Shown: piece after piece, positions 18,738 through 39,332 of the stretch
Layout: each line of letters begins with the position of its first letter
Numbering within the stretch: the stretch's first letter is position 1
DNA from: Prochlorococcus sp. MIT 1307
GTDB lineage: Bacteria > Cyanobacteriota > Cyanobacteriia > PCC-6307 > Cyanobiaceae
NCBI RefSeq assembly: GCF_034092395.1
Contig: NZ_CP139301.1
Coordinates: 310,001-374,000 of the forward strand
Direction of reading: 5' to 3'
DNA: 64,000 nt
Program-made: the position numbers and the translations under genes
Notes under the pieces: generated by a model
Told to the model about the DNA's origin: nothing
Seen by the model: only the letters and a program-made list of their open reading frames with translations
The model's database searches: none

Positions 18738-19298
18738 CTACCAATCTTCTTCAAGTCCTATGCCCCATTCATCATTATATTGGTTTTTATTTAGGCCTAT
18801 TTCTTCAAAAGCTTCCTCCTCCTCAATAGTCTCATCTATATCAAATTCATTATGTGTTGAGTAAGAATTTTTATATTCTTCTTTGTAGGTTCTTTTATTG
18901 AGAATCTTAAATGGAACAGAGATGGTTGGAATTGGATCACGTATATCACGCTCAGGTTGATAGTCAAGATCATCTCTGGGTGAGAATTCCTCTTCAAATT
19001 GGATAAAATCATTTTCTAAAGGTTGATTTTTATTATTAATGTTATGAGATGAAGGAGAATATTTAACTGCTCTTTTTAGCGATAAGGGCTTTGAATTACT
19101 TGTAAGTGCAGCTGCTAATGATATTAGAGCACTTGATGAACTTGCTAATGTCATAACTATACCAAGACTTATTGTTGGCGATGTCCAGGTTAGTATTTTT
19201 ATACGAACATTCTTATTTAAGTTAAATGCAGAAATAGTAACTATAGATATAAGTGGAATAGTGCATAATATTAAAAGTATTTGTTTTCTTAATTTCAT
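18738..19298 (-). CDS. Two-span membrane protein with acidic tail, unknown
   Basis: 186 residues. A first hydrophobic span (QILLILCTIPLISIVTISAF) near 6-25 and a second (IVMTLASSSSALISLAAALT) near 46-66 are followed by about 120 polar residues rich in Glu/Asp, ending NDEWGIGLEEDW. No family recognised. The ATG overlaps the ubiX stop by 4 bp, so it is probably translated with ubiX. Confidence 0.6.
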   Translation of the reverse strand: MKLRKQILLILCTIPLISIVTISAFNLNKNVRIKILTWTSPTISLGIVMTLASSSSALISLAAALTSNSKPLSLKRAVKYSPSSHNINNKNQPLENDFIQFEEEFSPRDDLDYQPERDIRDPIPTISVPFKILNKRTYKEEYKNSYSTHNEFDIDETIEEEEAFEEIGLNKNQYNDEWGIGLEEDW

Positions 19299-19903
19299 TT
19301 ATTTGGAGCTGACCAACGCTTTAAAGGAGCTAGGTCTTCTCCTAGCAAATCAAATATCCTAATAACAATAAAATCAATCATTTCTTCTAAGTTTTTTGGA
19401 CTTGTATACCAGGCCGGGACAGGGGGGCAAATAATAGCCCCGGCTTCTGAGACATTTGTCATATTTTTAAGGTGAATTAAGCTCAAAGGTGATTCCCTTG
19501 GTACAAGTATTAATGGCCGTCTTTCCTTAAGATGAACATCAGCGGTTCTTTCAATAAGATTGTTAGAAAATCCAGCAGCTATTCTTCCTAAGGTACCCAT
19601 TGAACAGGGAATTACAATCATTCCTAAAGTTTTAAAGCTGCCGCTTGCTATATTTGCAGAGTGATCACTCCATCTATAACAATTTAGATTTTTTGCATTA
19701 ATTTTTAGGCGTTCCTCCCAAAAATTTCTTTGAGTTATTGGTTCAAGAGGTACTTTTAAATTATTTTCAGATAAAAAGACTTCGTAGGCTCCTTTGCTCA
19801 GTATTAAATTTATACTAAAGCCTTTTTTTAATAGCAATTGTAGGGCTCTTTCTGCTAAAGGCATCGCAGATGCGCCTGTCACTGCTACTACTAGGGGTTT
19901 CAT
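19295..19903 (-). CDS. ubiX: Flavin prenyltransferase UbiX
   Basis: 202 residues. UbiX adds a dimethylallyl group to FMN to make the prenylated cofactor of UbiD decarboxylases used in quinone synthesis. Motifs: VVAVTGASAMPLAERAL, VIPCSMGTLGRIAAGFSNNL and ERRPLILVPRESPLSLIHL, all flavin/prenyl-phosphate-binding signatures. Length is normal. It follows the RNase R-like gene by 2 bp and overlaps the next gene by 4 bp. Confidence 0.93.
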   Translation of the reverse strand: MKPLVVAVTGASAMPLAERALQLLLKKGFSINLILSKGAYEVFLSENNLKVPLEPITQRNFWEERLKINAKNLNCYRWSDHSANIASGSFKTLGMIVIPCSMGTLGRIAAGFSNNLIERTADVHLKERRPLILVPRESPLSLIHLKNMTNVSEAGAIICPPVPAWYTSPKNLEEMIDFIVIRIFDLLGEDLAPLKRWSAPNK

Positions 19904-19905
19904 CT

Positions 19906-22254
19906 CTAATCCTCAATAATAGTTTCGCTGATCGATTTATCATCTGAAATTATTGAATTAGGCTCAAGATTGTTATCTGGATCTTCTCCTTCTGTTTCGT
20001 AGGCCTCCAGATCTATTTGATTTCTTAAAATATCTATCTTTATAACCTTAACATTAAGTACATCTCCTAGTTGATATATTTTTTTACTTTTTCGACCTAC
20101 TAAGCGACTTTGACGAGATCTATATTCATACCAATCATCGTTCAGAGAACTTACATGAACAAGGCCTTCAGCCATTGTTGGTTTTATTTCTGCAAAAAAT
20201 CCGTAGCTTTGAACACCACTAATCACAGCTTCTTTCATCTCACCTATAAAGGGTTCAGCTGATCTAGCCTGAGACATGGAAATAAGTCCATTTCGTAGAG
20301 TTTTTGCCTTTTTATGTTGAATATTTAAATAATTAATAATCTTTTCTGAGGTAATATTATTGTGCAATGAAACTAATGTTTCGTTTAATATTGGCCAGTT
20401 AATTTCATTTTGACAATTTTTCCTACCTAGTTTTACTGAAGTTTTTATTCTATTTGTTGGGCGTGCTTTACCTTCCTTTAATAAATTAATTAATATATGT
20501 TGATTAATAATATCATAGTAATGCAGACCAGGGCAACATATTGGTGCTTGAATGTCTCTCGTAATTAAGGGATTGTTACTTTTACCATCAGGTACAATTG
20601 AATCAGTTATATCCTTAAATGTTGGATTAAATGCCACTAATACTGGCATAGGTAAGGCATGGGACAATAACTTATCTAGAACTCTTCTTGATTTATTATT
20701 TACAAATGCTTTAGAGAGTTCAGAGGCTGATGGAATTCCCTCTTCGTCTAGCTCAAGTTTTAAATCCAATGCAATTGCTGATTTTGCTACATCAGTTAAT
20801 GTCCCTGTATCTACATTGTCTGACTGAATTGTAATTCCAGGTAATTTTAAAGCAACAATATGGTTATACCAAGCTCTATTGGCTGCTCTGAGTATAGGGG
20901 CTAAGACAGATTGAGGGTCACATTCATTAAATGGTAATTTCCACTGTTCAATTTCTGACTCAGGATTTTGGTTAGATAATTCCTCTAGATTCCCAATTTC
21001 TGGAGAAGGCAAATCTAATTCTATAAGTCCACGATTCTTTTCATCATTTAAAATTAACTTGGCACAAAAAATAGTTGTTTGAAGTTGTACTAAATGATCT
21101 TTAATTGATTTTAATGCTACTGGAGTAGCTCTAGATTTAGGTTTTCTAGATTGTAAACTTTCTAAATGAAGTTTATTTATAATTGCTACTGGCCTTATTT
21201 CACTAAGGTAAAATTCCCAATCATTTATTTCTCCTTGAGCTGTGATATCTAATTCTATTGTTATTGCTTTATTATTGATCCCTGGTTCAAATTTACAAGC
21301 CTTTGTTAAATTTTTGCTTAATAATGGATTCCATATCTCTCCAAGGCAATGTGCCTCTGACCTTGTAAATAGCCAATGATCAAGATTATTACCTAAGCTA
21401 ACTCTTTCTGCTATTGAAGGAATATGTACCCATAATTTAACTCCTCCTGCATTGGGTTCTACATATAAAGCGGGTAGCGGTGGAGAATCATTTCCACCCC
21501 AACTCCTAAGTAATAATGAAGGTTGTGATGTTAAATCTCTTCTATTCTTATCGGTAGGATTTTTGATAGTACTCCTAGGGGACAATGTCTCATTTTGTAA
21601 TCCATTCTTTGTAAGCAGGATATCAATGTCGCCCTTAGAACCACCATCTAATGGAAGTGGCCTTACAACATGTCCGACTGGATCGTATTGAGCAATAGGA
21701 TATTTATCTATTTCAACTTCAACTAGATTTTCCTTATTACTTTCTTCATAAAAAGTTATATCAGACTCCTTTAATTGAATAGTTGATAATATTCTATCAT
21801 CAAGAGGTGTTGCAATTAAATTACCTTCTTCTAATTCAAGAATAGAAAGTAAATTTGATGTAGACCTTTCTAAAATGCAATGAACTATACCTTCTGGAGA
21901 TCTTCTTCTTACAGCTTCTCTAGAAATAGTAACTAAAACTCTATCTCCGTTCCACGCTTGATTTAGAAATTGATCTCTTATATAAATGTCTTCTCCAGCT
22001 CCATCTTCCCTCACCGCGAAACAATATCCCTTACTACTACACCGCAGGCGGGCCTCCAAAAATGAACTGTTAGCTACTCTTAAGAGTCCTTCATCTGACT
22101 TTTGGATAATACCAAGCTTAGTAAAGGCTTGAACGGCTATCTCTAACTTTTGCCGATCATTCTTTTTTGATAATTTTAAAATTTTCTCAATTTTCTTCTG
22201 CTCCTGTGCTTTCTCTACACTTAGTTGTTCCAGAAGTTTTGCTGACGAGAACAT
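19906..22254 (-). CDS. RNase II/R-like protein with degenerate RNB catalytic site
   Basis: 782 residues with the architecture of RNase R: an N-terminal helical/cold-shock region (RCSSKGYCFAVREDGAGEDIYI), RNB domain, and a C-terminal S1 domain near residues 655-750 (GVQSYGFFAEIKPTMAEGLVHVSS). The RNB segment KLWVHIPSIAERVSLGNNLD aligns by eye with RNase R, but the Asp cluster that should precede it (D-x-x-D-x-DD) is replaced by SWGGNDSPPLPALYVEP. The TSPIRRYPD-like motif is replaced by CCPGLHYYDI. The protein therefore probably binds RNA without exoribonuclease activity. An intact RNB enzyme is encoded at 38022. Translationally close to ubiX. Confidence 0.8.
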   Translation of the reverse strand: MFSSAKLLEQLSVEKAQEQKKIEKILKLSKKNDRQKLEIAVQAFTKLGIIQKSDEGLLRVANSSFLEARLRCSSKGYCFAVREDGAGEDIYIRDQFLNQAWNGDRVLVTISREAVRRRSPEGIVHCILERSTSNLLSILELEEGNLIATPLDDRILSTIQLKESDITFYEESNKENLVEVEIDKYPIAQYDPVGHVVRPLPLDGGSKGDIDILLTKNGLQNETLSPRSTIKNPTDKNRRDLTSQPSLLLRSWGGNDSPPLPALYVEPNAGGVKLWVHIPSIAERVSLGNNLDHWLFTRSEAHCLGEIWNPLLSKNLTKACKFEPGINNKAITIELDITAQGEINDWEFYLSEIRPVAIINKLHLESLQSRKPKSRATPVALKSIKDHLVQLQTTIFCAKLILNDEKNRGLIELDLPSPEIGNLEELSNQNPESEIEQWKLPFNECDPQSVLAPILRAANRAWYNHIVALKLPGITIQSDNVDTGTLTDVAKSAIALDLKLELDEEGIPSASELSKAFVNNKSRRVLDKLLSHALPMPVLVAFNPTFKDITDSIVPDGKSNNPLITRDIQAPICCPGLHYYDIINQHILINLLKEGKARPTNRIKTSVKLGRKNCQNEINWPILNETLVSLHNNITSEKIINYLNIQHKKAKTLRNGLISMSQARSAEPFIGEMKEAVISGVQSYGFFAEIKPTMAEGLVHVSSLNDDWYEYRSRQSRLVGRKSKKIYQLGDVLNVKVIKIDILRNQIDLEAYETEGEDPDNNLEPNSIISDDKSISETIIED

Positions 22255-22376: not shown

Positions 22377-22667
22377 TTAAAGATGATCCTCGGTTTTTTT
22401 TGTAAGGGGCCAGAGCAACTTGGCACCTATTAGTAGGAATCCTAAAGCGGCAAGTGTTTTTAAAATATCACTTGGAATCATTGCTGCAATAGAACTTCCA
22501 GCTACTACACCAAAGAAGCTAGCAAGAACAAGTGCGCATGATGAGCCTAAAAGGACTGCTAGAGGCCTATTAGAGGAACCACTGATGGCAACAGTTGCTA
22601 ATTGAGTTTTATCTCCTAGTTCAGCCAAGAAGACAGTTGTGAAAGTCGTTAGGAAAAGAGTAAACAT
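22377..22667 (-). CDS. Half-size UPF0016 (GDT1-type) membrane transporter
   Basis: 96 residues with three hydrophobic helices, i.e. one half of a typical six-helix UPF0016 protein. The family motif E-x-G-D-K-T appears as FLAELGDKTQLATVAISG. Known members in cyanobacteria (Mnx) and eukaryotes (GDT1) move Mn2+ or Ca2+. It abuts a second half-size gene at 22668, so the two products may pair as a heterodimer. The C-terminus (WPLTKKTEDHL) is basic/polar. Confidence 0.85.
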   Translation of the reverse strand: MFTLFLTTFTTVFLAELGDKTQLATVAISGSSNRPLAVLLGSSCALVLASFFGVVAGSSIAAMIPSDILKTLAALGFLLIGAKLLWPLTKKTEDHL

Positions 22668-23054
22668 TTAGGAATAACGAAGGTTTTGATATATAGACAC
22701 AATGGACTGAGAAGAAATTAATAGGCCAATACCAACCATTAACAAACCAGCAATATAGTTAAATCGTTCAGCAGGCATAACTCTTGATAACCATCTACCT
22801 AGTAGAACACCAACTACGCTAGAGCATATCAATGCCAAGGCTGCTCCAATAAATACTATTAATGGCTTACCTGACTGAGCCGTTAATAATAATGTAGCTA
22901 TCTGCGTTTTGTCACCTAATTCCGCCAAGAAAACAGTAGTAAATGTTGTTATAAAGACACGTGTAAACCCTTTTTGTTCATTGGTTTTTGGTTCTTGTAT
23001 CAATTTCTTATTCATTGTAAAGTACCTCTTATTTTTTTCTAATTTCTGTTTCAA
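22668..23054 (-). CDS. Half-size UPF0016 (GDT1-type) membrane transporter
   Basis: 128 residues; the core FLAELGDKTQIATLLLTAQSGK carries the ExGDKT metal motif, with three membrane helices as in its neighbour. The N-terminal 30 residues are charged; an internal ATG (MNKKLIQEP) near 23015 is an equally plausible start and would remove the 26-bp overlap with the upstream YkgJ-type gene. The stop codon is immediately followed by the start of the second UPF0016 gene, indicating coupled expression. Confidence 0.85.
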   Translation of the reverse strand: MKQKLEKNKRYFTMNKKLIQEPKTNEQKGFTRVFITTFTTVFLAELGDKTQIATLLLTAQSGKPLIVFIGAALALICSSVVGVLLGRWLSRVMPAERFNYIAGLLMVGIGLLISSQSIVSIYQNLRYS

Positions 23055-23391
23055 ATCTTTTTAAAACGGCACTATCTTTGCCATATATATGATTAATTTG
23101 ATCTCGACAGCAATTAATTGCGAATAATTCGACTTGATTTTGCTCTATATTAAAAATATTAGAAATATTAGATACTCTGCAAAAGTCGGGCCTTTCATCA
23201 TAAATATTACAGTTGCATGAATCCACATTATAGTTGACACACCATCCATTTTTATCTACAAGAGAAAAATATTTTTTTGTTTGCTCTTGATCAAGAAATC
23301 TAAGTGCTTCTAGCCTTTCCTCCGGTGACAATCGACAACAAGCACCGCAATTGTTGATGCATTTCCAGTGGAGCATGGATGTTCGGATCAT
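23029..23391 (-). CDS. YkgJ-family cysteine-cluster protein
   Basis: 120 residues with about ten cysteines, starting WKCINNCGACCRL and continuing NYNVDSCNCNIYDERPDFCRV. The CxxxCGxCC and CxCxIYxxRPxFCR arrangement is that of the YkgJ/UPF0153 family, thought to bind zinc or an iron-sulfur cluster. Function unknown. Its 3' end overlaps the annotated start of the UPF0016 pair, suggesting one transcript for metal-related proteins. A 21-bp dyad (23397-23417) lies directly before its start. Confidence 0.85.
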   Translation of the reverse strand: MIRTSMLHWKCINNCGACCRLSPEERLEALRFLDQEQTKKYFSLVDKNGWCVNYNVDSCNCNIYDERPDFCRVSNISNIFNIEQNQVELFAINCCRDQINHIYGKDSAVLKRFETEIRKK

Positions 23392-23749: not shown

Positions 23750-25654
23750 TTAACTAACTATTCCTAGAGCTACCTTTGCTTCTTCAATTAAGGACTTAAC
23801 ATACGAGTTGCCTATTAAATCCTTATTAGTAATCAAATCATATGGCGAATTTAACAAAAAAACAAGTTCTTCATTTGTCTCATTAGATAAAACGACTTCC
23901 TTATTGTGTCTTATAAAGCATTTATAGATTCGATCCTTTCGTTTAATAGAAATAATTTCATTGAATTCTCTAATAGATCGAATCTCTAGTTGAAAAGATT
24001 TCTTACCCTGCCATTCGTTAATAGAAATATGATATGCAATATCAATATACTGAGGCAATTTGATATTCTTTGGAGCTCGCCAATAAATAGATTCTAGTTG
24101 AAATTTATCCTGTGATATTAGAAGCTTAAGATGACCTCCTCGTAACTCTTGAAAATTAATAACTTCACATTTTCTCGACCAGAATAAAGGTTTAGTATGA
24201 CCAACGCCGAATGGCTCTAGTTTTTTTATATGTTCCCACAACTCGATATTTATATCTGAAAGTTTTATATTTGCATCAGGTGTACAACTGAGAAACTTAC
24301 CTGTGCTTTTATACCATTTATCTGCAATAATATTAAATTGTTCATGCAACCTTGAAATATTTTCTGGTCTTACAGTAAAACCTCCAGCAGCTGGATGACC
24401 TCCAAAACTTTCGAGAAAGGATGAGGTTTCTTCTAGGGCATTACTTACATTAAAACCACGAGGGGCCCTAACAGAAGCTCTGAAATTTCCATCTTTATTT
24501 CTTGCAAGAAGAGCTGTAGGCCTATTATATTTTTCAACAAGACGTGAGGCTACTATTCCTACTATTCCTTGATGCCAATGTGATTGTGCAATTAAAATAA
24601 AAGGAGATAATGCCCCCTCTTCTGCTTCTATAAGTGCTGTAGCCTCTAACTCCACACCATTACTCAATTCTCTACGCTGTTTATTAATATCATCACATTT
24701 CTTTGCCATTTCCATAGCTTTTAAAACATCATCCTCAAGAAAAAGATCTAGAATAAGTTCAGGATCTCCAATACGACCAACAGCATTAATTCTAGGTGCT
24801 ATTTGAAAACTGATGGTCTCAGATTCAATAACATGATTTTTAATTCCACATAACTTATAAAGAGCTTTTAAACCTAGACAATTAGTTCTATGTATATTTT
24901 TTAGTCCGTGTTTTAAAATATATCTATTGGAGCCTGTTAAAGGAGCCATATCAGCGATTGTACCAATACAAAAAAGATCGATTAGATCATCCTGAATAGA
25001 TGATTCAATAAGAGAGTTATCTATACTAGAGGCCAATATATATGCTAAACCAACTCCTGCTAAATTCTTATAAGGCGAATCTAATGGTGTTGTACTAGGA
25101 TGGATTAAAGCTAGTACAGAAGGTACGCCATTTGTTATTTGATGATGATCAGTAAGTATAATATCTATATTTAAGTCATTTGCTAGATGAATAGCTTCAA
25201 AGGCATTTACACCATTATCTACGGTAATAATTAAGGTAATTCCTTTAGAGTGTAATTCCTCTATCATTCTAATATTAAGGCCATATCCATCATCTATACG
25301 GCTAGGTATGGCAGCTATAGCTTGGCAATGAGTTTTAAGAAATACTTTTAATAGTAAGGCTGTGCTAGTCATACCATCTGCATCATAATCTCCACAAATG
25401 GCTATTTTCTCCTTATTTTTTATAGCTGACTCAATTCTTTCCTTTGCCAAATAAAGTTCTGGATATTGATCCATGGGATTTGGTAAAGGATGCGGATTTA
25501 AAATATCTTGTACTTTGCTAATATCATCAAACCCACGTCTGACTAGAATTGCTTTTAAAAATTCTGGAAGGTCTAATTCTGAAAAAACACCTTCAGGCAA
25601 TGGTCTGGGAAGTGTCCAGGCTTGGTATCCTATATTTGAAAATGAACAAGCCAT
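23750..25654 (-). CDS. recJ: Single-strand-specific exonuclease RecJ
   Basis: About 634 residues from ATG 25654 (MACSFSNIGYQAWTLPRPLP); an upstream ATG at 25693 would add 13 unconserved residues. RecJ degrades 5' ssDNA ends in recombination and mismatch repair. DHH motifs: CGDYDADGMTSTALLLK near residue 85, ITVDNGVNA, ILTDHHQI. DHHA1 signature: SFGGHPAAGGFTV. The C-terminal OB-fold is present. It is divergent from the HAD gene, with about 55 bp between starts. Confidence 0.95.
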   Translation of the reverse strand: MACSFSNIGYQAWTLPRPLPEGVFSELDLPEFLKAILVRRGFDDISKVQDILNPHPLPNPMDQYPELYLAKERIESAIKNKEKIAICGDYDADGMTSTALLLKVFLKTHCQAIAAIPSRIDDGYGLNIRMIEELHSKGITLIITVDNGVNAFEAIHLANDLNIDIILTDHHQITNGVPSVLALIHPSTTPLDSPYKNLAGVGLAYILASSIDNSLIESSIQDDLIDLFCIGTIADMAPLTGSNRYILKHGLKNIHRTNCLGLKALYKLCGIKNHVIESETISFQIAPRINAVGRIGDPELILDLFLEDDVLKAMEMAKKCDDINKQRRELSNGVELEATALIEAEEGALSPFILIAQSHWHQGIVGIVASRLVEKYNRPTALLARNKDGNFRASVRAPRGFNVSNALEETSSFLESFGGHPAAGGFTVRPENISRLHEQFNIIADKWYKSTGKFLSCTPDANIKLSDINIELWEHIKKLEPFGVGHTKPLFWSRKCEVINFQELRGGHLKLLISQDKFQLESIYWRAPKNIKLPQYIDIAYHISINEWQGKKSFQLEIRSIREFNEIISIKRKDRIYKCFIRHNKEVVLSNETNEELVFLLNSPYDLITNKDLIGNSYVKSLIEEAKVALGIVS

Positions 25655-25709
25655 ACTGTTCTTATATGTTTTAACAATAGTGCATCTTTTCATTATAAAT
25701 TAAATCCTT

Positions 25710-38021: not shown

Positions 38022-39332
38022 TTATTTAACAAGCTTAAATGATAATATCTTGGACGAATCGGGTATATCATTAAAAATAATCTCCAATTTATCTCCTATA
38101 TTCCATTCTCCTAATGAATTTAAATGGCAAGCCAAATCCATTTCTAATTCTTTAAAATACAATAAAGTTACTCCTTGAGTTTTGCTTAGTCTTCTTAAGA
38201 AGAAAGTCTGCCATATTTTCTCTTTATTTTTTAAGAACCAATTTCTCTGGGAACTTAATAAATCTTCTCTCATTATGTCTATAGATTGCTTATGACTTAT
38301 CATTAATGATGTCAATATATCTGAGATTTCTTCTTCGGAATAAATAGACATTTTATCCAATGTGCCAAGTACTTGCCTGTGTACCAATAGATCTGTATAT
38401 CTTCTAAGTGGTGAAGTTGCTTGAGAATAGCAATCTAGTCCCAGACTAAAATGATAACCTGCTTTAGTACTAGTAGTAGCTTTAGGTAAATTCTGTTTTA
38501 TCGAAGAGTTTAATATAGCCAAATGATGACTTCCTCTTATTAAACTATTAGTATTTCTGGTTCTATGTTGAGATCTGAAAGGGATAGGTATAGACATTTT
38601 TTTGGCATATTTAGCTACTATTGTTCCAAAAAGTATCATACTTTCGCTAACTAATTTTCTTGACATTGAAGGCTCAGTAATTTGTATGATTTGTTTGCCT
38701 TCTATAACTTTTAAGCGACCATATGGTTGTTCTAAAAAAATGGCTCCATTGACTTTTCTCCATTCTCTCCTCTTGTTTAATAAGTTTGATAGTTCTGATA
38801 GATCATTCTCTTCTGGAGGGGCATAATCGATCAGTTCATTTGCTTCATCATAAGTTAAATTATATCTAGGGCTTATAAACCCTCGTTGAATATTATAATT
38901 TAGAATATTGCCTTCATTATCCAATTCGATTGATATACTCAAAGTTGCTGTTTTTTTACCAGCTTTTAAACTAAAATTATTTTCCACTAAATCCCTAGGT
39001 AGCATAGGCTGGGTAGTGGTAGATAAATATATACTAGTAGATTTTTTTCTTGCTTCTAAATCAATTTGACTATTAATTGGGATGAATGTAGATGGATCAG
39101 ATATATGAATCCAAACTATCCTTCGACCATCTTTAATATCTAAAGATATTGCGTCGTCAATCTCGAATGTTTCATGATCATCTATTGTATATGTTTTTAA
39201 ATGTGTTAAATCTAGTAGTTTTTTATTTAATAGTAATTGATTGCATCTTTTGTTGTAAGCATCTTTACTTTCTAAAGATGTAGAAAATATTTGGGAAGTT
39301 AATTCAATATTTAATTTTGACTCGTATTCCAA
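38022..39332 (-). CDS. Compact RNase II/RNB exoribonuclease
   Basis: 436 residues from a TTG start (39332); the upstream frame is open back to the rpsR stop with no ATG. The RNB active site is intact: YTIDDHETFEIDDAIS has the Asp/Glu cluster, and SPLRRYTDLLVHRQ supplies the catalytic Arg and Asp. It lacks the N-terminal cold-shock domains of E. coli RNase II (644 residues), and the C-terminus is a short S1-like segment. It lies 33 bp after rpsR in the same orientation and frame, so an rpmG-rpsR-rnb transcript is likely. It degrades RNA 3' to 5'. Confidence 0.85.
   Translation of the reverse strand: MEYESKLNIELTSQIFSTSLESKDAYNKRCNQLLLNKKLLDLTHLKTYTIDDHETFEIDDAISLDIKDGRRIVWIHISDPSTFIPINSQIDLEARKKSTSIYLSTTTQPMLPRDLVENNFSLKAGKKTATLSISIELDNEGNILNYNIQRGFISPRYNLTYDEANELIDYAPPEENDLSELSNLLNKRREWRKVNGAIFLEQPYGRLKVIEGKQIIQITEPSMSRKLVSESMILFGTIVAKYAKKMSIPIPFRSQHRTRNTNSLIRGSHHLAILNSSIKQNLPKATTSTKAGYHFSLGLDCYSQATSPLRRYTDLLVHRQVLGTLDKMSIYSEEEISDILTSLMISHKQSIDIMREDLLSSQRNWFLKNKEKIWQTFFLRRLSKTQGVTLLYFKELEMDLACHLNSLGEWNIGDKLEIIFNDIPDSSKILSFKLVK

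Follow-up and report, generated by a model that had tools for sequence, protein, structure and literature searches.

The zam locus and its neighbourhood

The minus strand of the window (the whole stretch of 64,000 nucleotides that was analysed) contains at 19906..22254 an open reading frame, starting with ATG, that encodes 782 amino acids. The gene was designated zam, and its product is described here as an RNase R-like pseudo-exoribonuclease on the basis of the reading frame, its Pfam domains, a tree and an AlphaFold2 model with a fold match to RNase R. Pfam searches placed an OB_RNB domain at residues 69-124, followed by a CSD2 domain, an RNB domain (238-593, E = 1.1e-35) and an S1 domain (667-750). 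The order OB_RNB/CSD1, CSD2, degenerate RNB and S1 is the layout of RNase R, as the sequence-only reading had recognised. The score of the protein with the NCBIfam RNase R model TIGR02063 was 192 bits, far under the cut-off of 598.

The ubiX gene, encoding a flavin prenyltransferase (TIGR00421, above the cut-off), is located at 19295..19903 on the same strand. The TAG stop codon of zam is separated from the ATG of ubiX by 2 nucleotides, and the sequence GAGG is present in the last zam codons. The gene order on which a translational link between zam and ubiX had been proposed is therefore as described, but the coupling itself remains putative and a clade of picocyanobacteria, g2, keeps zam with no detectable ubiX. 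Outside that clade, all 48 picocyanobacterial loci have ubiX directly downstream of zam; within it, none of 7 loci does, and among the other cyanobacteria 33 of 71 loci do. The gene arrangement suggests that the adjacency is old but dispensable, and it probably reflects co-transcription. A necessary dependence of zam on ubiX was rejected, since zam is kept in the three g2 genomes (G101, G153 and G174) in which ubiX was not detected. The clade is one of small genomes (with loci L041-L045, L047 and L097), whose prenylated-FMN-dependent steps are puzzling.

Two half-size GDT1 antiporter genes, a gene for a CxxCxxCC protein and a recJ-like gene are found upstream of zam (22377-23391 and 23750-25693), in an order common to most picocyanobacterial loci. 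A 186-codon open reading frame at 18738-19298, which shares 4 nucleotides with the 3' end of ubiX and occupies the same place in most picocyanobacterial loci, gave no Pfam or NCBIfam match.

Identification and distribution of Zam

We consider it virtually certain that the window protein is an orthologue of Zam, a member of the RNase II/R family that is a pseudo-exoribonuclease of cyanobacteria. A quick LG+G4 search on 117 RNB proteins, with the catalytic loops left out, gave a tree with long outgroup branches in which the Zams formed one clade (SH-aLRT 97), as did the picocyanobacterial Zams (100), and the remaining cyanobacterial RNB proteins grouped separately (85). The window protein grouped with the other Zams and apart from cyanobacterial Rnb. 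No sequence in the tree carried the name Zam, and orthology to the named Zams was judged from the domain layout, the cysteine pair of CSD1 and the pattern of a single Zam-type gene alongside a single Rnb-type gene in each genome.

Of 195 Cyanobacteriia genomes, 191 carry zam, as do 70 of the 71 sampled Cyanobiaceae genomes, including streamlined genomes of 1.6 Mb; the Cyanobiaceae exception, G159, is 94% complete. Zam was not detected in genome G251 (a single contig of 4,187,797 bases, where only Rnb was found), nor in three draft genomes (G259, G226 and G185), in which Rnb was found. In another single-contig genome (L129, G207:C1:733000-741000), zam is present as two overlapping reading frames of 273 and 441 amino acids, which could be a true split or a frameshift. 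Prochlorococcus has the smallest photosynthetic genomes and is devoid of phycobilisomes. Zam is thus nearly universal in cyanobacteria, and since its gene survives in genomes without phycobilisomes, its core job cannot be the control of phycobilisomes only.

That the RNB active site of Zam is lost, which is the core finding, had already been published in 2022 by Thomas et al., who treat Zam as a cyanobacterial clade of the RNB family whose active site has degenerated (PMC9145284). The sequence-only reading was right to call the protein a pseudo-nuclease, but it overlooked that this is a named and studied protein whose loss of the active site had been published (PMC9145284). Literature searches on Prochlorococcus Zam and on catalytically inactive cyanobacterial RNB proteins yielded no further Zam paper.

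Loss of the catalytic residues and retention of the fold

The catalytic sites were placed on the window Zam with three alignments (phmmer to Bacillus subtilis RNase R, MAFFT and profile-profile hhalign). The MAFFT alignment with Escherichia coli RNase II and RNase R (MG1655 sequences) showed that the residues at positions D201, D207, D209, D210 and R500 of RNase II are R, P, L, P and L, respectively, so that the metal cluster and the SPIRRYPD motif are both lost, as had been claimed. The former aspartate cluster (ancestral D201..D209-D210) corresponds to residues 251-267, SWGGNDSPPLPALYVEP (21454..21504, minus strand), and the former R500 motif to residues 573-581, CCPGLHYYD (20512..20538, minus strand); both sequences are present as quoted in the sequence-only reading. 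The phmmer alignment also put both segments on the catalytic sites, and hhalign placed them opposite TIDGEDARDFDDA and AHFTSPIRRYPD, with a register in the first loop that is off by about 1-2 residues and leaves the conclusion unaffected. Both loops are anchored by well-aligned segments: the first is preceded by RRDL and followed by LWVHI, and the second ends in a Y-x-D motif.

RNase R and RNase II require a D-x5-D-x-DD cluster, in which a glutamate is tolerated at the second position, and R500 in SPxRRY; the window Zam has neither. A pattern scan of the whole protein found no D-x5-D-x-DD, D-x-DD or SPxRRY motif elsewhere in the chain and no substitute acidic cluster, which rules out an intact aspartate cluster at another place. 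The lone acidic residue of the first loop, D256, is conserved in just 54% of picocyanobacterial orthologues, and the clamp tyrosine Y253 is replaced by a cysteine in most picocyanobacterial Zams, including that of the window. Since the metal site is gone, Zam would be unable to hydrolyse RNA, judging from the established biochemistry of the family, and the window protein is very probably not a conventional 3'-5' exonuclease.

The AlphaFold2 model of Zam, computed from 50 aligned picocyanobacterial sequences, had a mean pLDDT of 86 and a pTM of 0.86. Comparisons with Foldseek and VIA-align showed that it matches RNase R over residues 66-754, nearly the whole chain. The VIA-align Z score was 36.0 with 8cdu (603 residues, rmsd 4.8), 34.2 with E. 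coli RNase R (5xgu), 33.9 with E. coli RNase II D209N and 29.5 with the pseudonuclease Ssd1. The RNase R fold is thus predicted to be kept despite the loss of the catalytic residues. Spt6 complexes, RNA polymerase subunits and ribosomal protein S1 were discarded as weak or single-domain OB matches.

Extent of the active-site loss among Zams

None of the four catalytic aspartates is kept in any of the 56 full-length picocyanobacterial Zams aligned, including that of the window, and the R500 position is occupied by an arginine in one of them (L033) and by a lysine in three. The lost aspartates of the window Zam are therefore not a matter of chance. With a loss shared by all sampled picocyanobacteria, a fold that is kept and purifying selection, the proposal of a pseudo-nuclease is well supported.

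Outside the picocyanobacteria the loss is graded, and no Zam has all four aspartates. Many of these Zams read ...(V/I)ENAF... and R500 is often retained. One clade (L058, L059, L137, L140 and L145-L149) retains D201, D209, D210 and R500, with D207 changed to alanine or valine, and a single event of complete loss in all Zams is consequently unsupported. The whole active site is lost in the group L123-L126 and in the group L077/L130. Zams of genus g9 (which includes G040, locus L063) have T/V/E/N at the four aspartate positions and, from these residues, should be inactive. Counts that assume no regain of residues and depend on the quick tree put the losses of the D209-D210 pair at nine and those of R500 at 13 on the full tree; collapsing weak branches lowered these numbers to at least 3-4 and to 10-12, respectively. 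These counts suggest that the RNB active site was lost repeatedly among Zams. The graded and apparently repeated loss, together with the conservation of the RNA-binding domains, suggests that Zam first had a non-catalytic role and could then do without catalysis. Zams with three aspartates and R500 are natural intermediates that make the order of these steps testable. Some cyanobacteria carry a third RNB protein (L128 in G223, L110, L111 and L113), which branches apart from Rnb and Zam and in which the D/D/D/D cluster is intact.

Selection on the domains and on the former active-site loops

The pooled pN/pS ratios, which were calculated on close picocyanobacterial pairs and are rough, non-independent estimates (sequences are shared between pairs and some pairs are near synonymous saturation), were 0.03 for CSD1, 0.08 for S1, 0.15 for CSD2, 0.21 for RNB and 0.13 for the former active-site loops. 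All domains are under purifying selection, which is strongest on CSD1 and on the strongly conserved S1 domain (residues 667-756; 19987..20256, minus strand); these two are the best conserved parts of Zam. New residues are nearly invariant in the lost catalytic loops of picocyanobacterial Zams: W252 (98%), P258 (96%), P261 (93%), P571 (98%) and W572 (95%), the window Zam being an exception at position 572, where it has an isoleucine. From these residues and the low loop ratio, the former active-site loops are maintained and not decaying.

The second RNB enzyme of the window

The rnb gene (38022..39332, minus strand; TTG start codon) encodes an intact RNB exoribonuclease of 436 amino acids (Pfam RNB, E = 2.2e-71) without the N-terminal CSD-wH-HTH part that other cyanobacterial Rnbs have. 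The sequence-only reading had noted a second enzyme with both motifs here, and its cluster is D-x5-E-x-DD (IDDHETFEIDD), giving D/E/D/D with the glutamate usual in cyanobacterial Rnb, while the R500 motif is retained as TSPLRRYTD. The number of residues before D201 is 50 in the window Rnb and 12-60 in 17 short-form genomes (window included), versus 214-309 in the long forms; in a long form from another cyanobacterium, this leader is made of CSD_RNase_II, winged-helix and double-HTH domains. Within the Cyanobiaceae sample, short Rnbs are found in small Prochlorococcus-type genomes and in genus g66. Catalytic residues are kept in the short forms (window 38022-39332; L107, L108 and L168-L181).

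The loss of catalysis in Zam probably preceded the shortening of Rnb, because it covers the whole family sample, and the two were not simultaneous, because many Cyanobiaceae keep a full-length Rnb. A stripped Rnb alongside a dead Zam poses a concrete question on how Prochlorococcus, which ranks among the most abundant phototrophs, degrades its RNA. What the analysis adds to the known core is this stripped Rnb, the graded and apparently repeated loss in Zam, and former active-site loops that were refilled and are under selection.

The CSD1 cysteines and the possible role of Zam

The L12 loop of CSD1 (residues 71-81, RCSSKGYCFAV; 22012..22044, minus strand) was located from the aligned Zams and from work on PCC 7002, where cysteines C73 and C79 of Zam CSD1 are redox-active and required in vivo (PMC9145284). 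This pair, six residues apart, is matched by C72 and C78 of the window Zam in LRCSSKGYCFA. Of 106 aligned Zams, 104 have C72 and 100 have C78, and almost no variation is seen at residues R71, K75, F/Y77 and F79 of the RNA-binding loop. Two Prochlorococcus-type Zams (L031 and L037) have a serine at position 78, two others (L132 and L150) have a glycine there, and both cysteines are gone in L077 and L130. A CSD1 disulfide would not be universal among Zams, because some are without one or both cysteines.

In PCC 7002, the change of cysteine to serine at this site inactivates Zam, and the zam deletion and the C73S/C79S mutants have common phenotypes (PMC9145284). A purified preparation of PCC 7002 Zam, prone to aggregation, neither acted as a nuclease on several substrates nor bound RNA (PMC9145284). 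Thomas et al. proposed that Zam acts on RNase E under redox control, and they identify the Anabaena protein Alr1240 as Zam (PMC9145284). According to a review, this RNB protein binds RNase E and stimulates it, and Alr1240 was reported by Zhou et al. (2020), as cited in a review, to be an active RNase II degrading unstructured RNA. The listed operon alr1240-alr1241-alr1242 fits the order zam then ubiX of G040 (L063), which is circumstantial. If Alr1240 is Zam, its activity conflicts with a dead site; either the activity is not its own, or Alr1240 differs from its g9 relatives, or it was misassigned.

Zam must have another job than cutting RNA, because its RNA-binding parts are so tightly conserved, and it probably tunes RNA breakdown to the redox state of the cell. 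It is plausible, from the conserved domains, that the window Zam still binds RNA, perhaps as the chaperone or scaffold suggested by the sequence-only reading. Studies published on its relatives favour an involvement of redox control and of RNase E. By analogy with PCC 7002 and Anabaena, CSD1 and S1 would bind RNA and/or RNase E, and the CSD1 cysteines would gate this binding by redox. Exonuclease work in the window lineage would be left to Rnb and presumably PNPase. For the window Zam itself, this scheme draws on orthology, predicted fold, catalytic-residue loss, selection and the conservation of CSD1 and S1; its RNase E and redox steps come from the other two species, and no tests of RNase E binding or redox switching of Zam were found reported for any picocyanobacterium. 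We give about an even chance to Zam being a regulator that binds RNA under redox gating and acts through RNase E. The best overall explanation, which we hold to be somewhat probable, is that of a pseudo-exoribonuclease serving as a redox-sensitive RNA-binding regulator of RNA turnover through RNase E.

Other readings were weighed against this one. That Zam is a functionless, decaying relic or a sequencing error hardly deserves consideration; RNB evolves faster than the other domains compared, but the 782-codon frame is open, pN/pS is far below 1 in each domain, zam is kept in essentially all sampled Cyanobiaceae, the 1.6-Mb genomes included, and a deletion phenotype was published in relatives (PMC9145284). 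These data refute a relic or a frameshift. It is also very improbable that Zam is still an exoribonuclease, by an unconventional active site or residual activity. The reported degradation of unstructured RNA by Alr1240 and the retention of D201, D209, D210 and R500 in some Zams would agree with such an activity, but the four aspartates and R500 are all absent from the window Zam and from the Zams closely related to it (save for the arginine of L033 and the three lysines), no substitute cluster is present in the chain and PCC 7002 Zam had no nuclease activity (PMC9145284).

The refilled loops could mean that picocyanobacteria turned the RNB fold into a novel site that binds a protein, a small ligand or the 3' end of an RNA, and that their Zam has a function unlike that of other Zams. 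The new tryptophans and prolines sit exactly in the lost catalytic loops, whose pN/pS is lower than that of the RNB domain as a whole; however, the enrichment of conserved residues is mild, W and P may merely pack the emptied cavity, the window Zam departs from the pattern at position 572 and there is no known ligand, so that we regard this reading as unlikely. We judge it quite unlikely that the two RNB proteins underwent a reciprocal specialisation, in which the Zam of the Prochlorococcus lineage supplies RNA binding to a stripped Rnb as two halves of one exoribonuclease function. The shortened leader of a catalytically intact Rnb, the CSD-wH-double HTH content of the lost part in a long form and the retention of CSD1, CSD2 and S1 by picocyanobacterial Zam speak for it, but Zam catalysis was lost across the sampled Cyanobiaceae, many of which have a full-length Rnb, zam and rnb are about 16 kb apart in the window and not adjacent, and genome streamlining alone could explain the truncation. 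A Prochlorococcus-type split, with a non-catalytic RNA-binding Zam guiding or gating a near-bare catalytic Rnb (or RNase E) by redox state, would likewise be a long shot. The redox-sensitive regulator of RNA turnover is the reading that we retain.

Comparison with known systems

The window Zam shares with Synechocystis Sll1910 and PCC 7002 A1543 the domain layout, the CSD1 redox cysteine pair, the loss of the active site and a clade of its own in the RNB family (PMC9145284). It differs in being at the extreme end of the loss: neither R500 nor any of the four aspartates remains, and lineage-specific residues fill the loops, while R500 is retained in many other Zams and three aspartates in some. 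Cyanobacterial Rnb (Sll1290 type) also has an RNB domain, but its catalytic residues are intact, its N-terminal part is CSD_RNase_II-wH-HTH instead of OB_RNB-CSD2 and it forms a separate group from Zam in the tree. RNase R of E. coli and B. subtilis has the CSD1-CSD2-RNB-S1 fold (Z of 34-36 to the window Zam) with an active site and R500 that are intact, unlike those of Zam.

The RNB fold of yeast Ssd1 is devoid of the catalytic aspartates, as in the window Zam, to whose predicted model it matched as given above. The best sequence match of Zam is bacterial RNase R, in an analysis whose tree was made without Dis3L2, and we know of no redox cysteine pair in the CSD1 of Ssd1. Ssd1 differs from Zam in its descent from eukaryotic Dis3L2 and in repressing the translation of bound mRNAs. 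It nevertheless resembles Zam in having a dead RNB domain with conserved cold-shock domains, and repeated loss of the active site was also reported for Ssd1/Dis3L2 in fungi (PMC8097288), so that the graded and apparently repeated loss in Zam, with its RNA-binding domains conserved, parallels that of fungal Ssd1.
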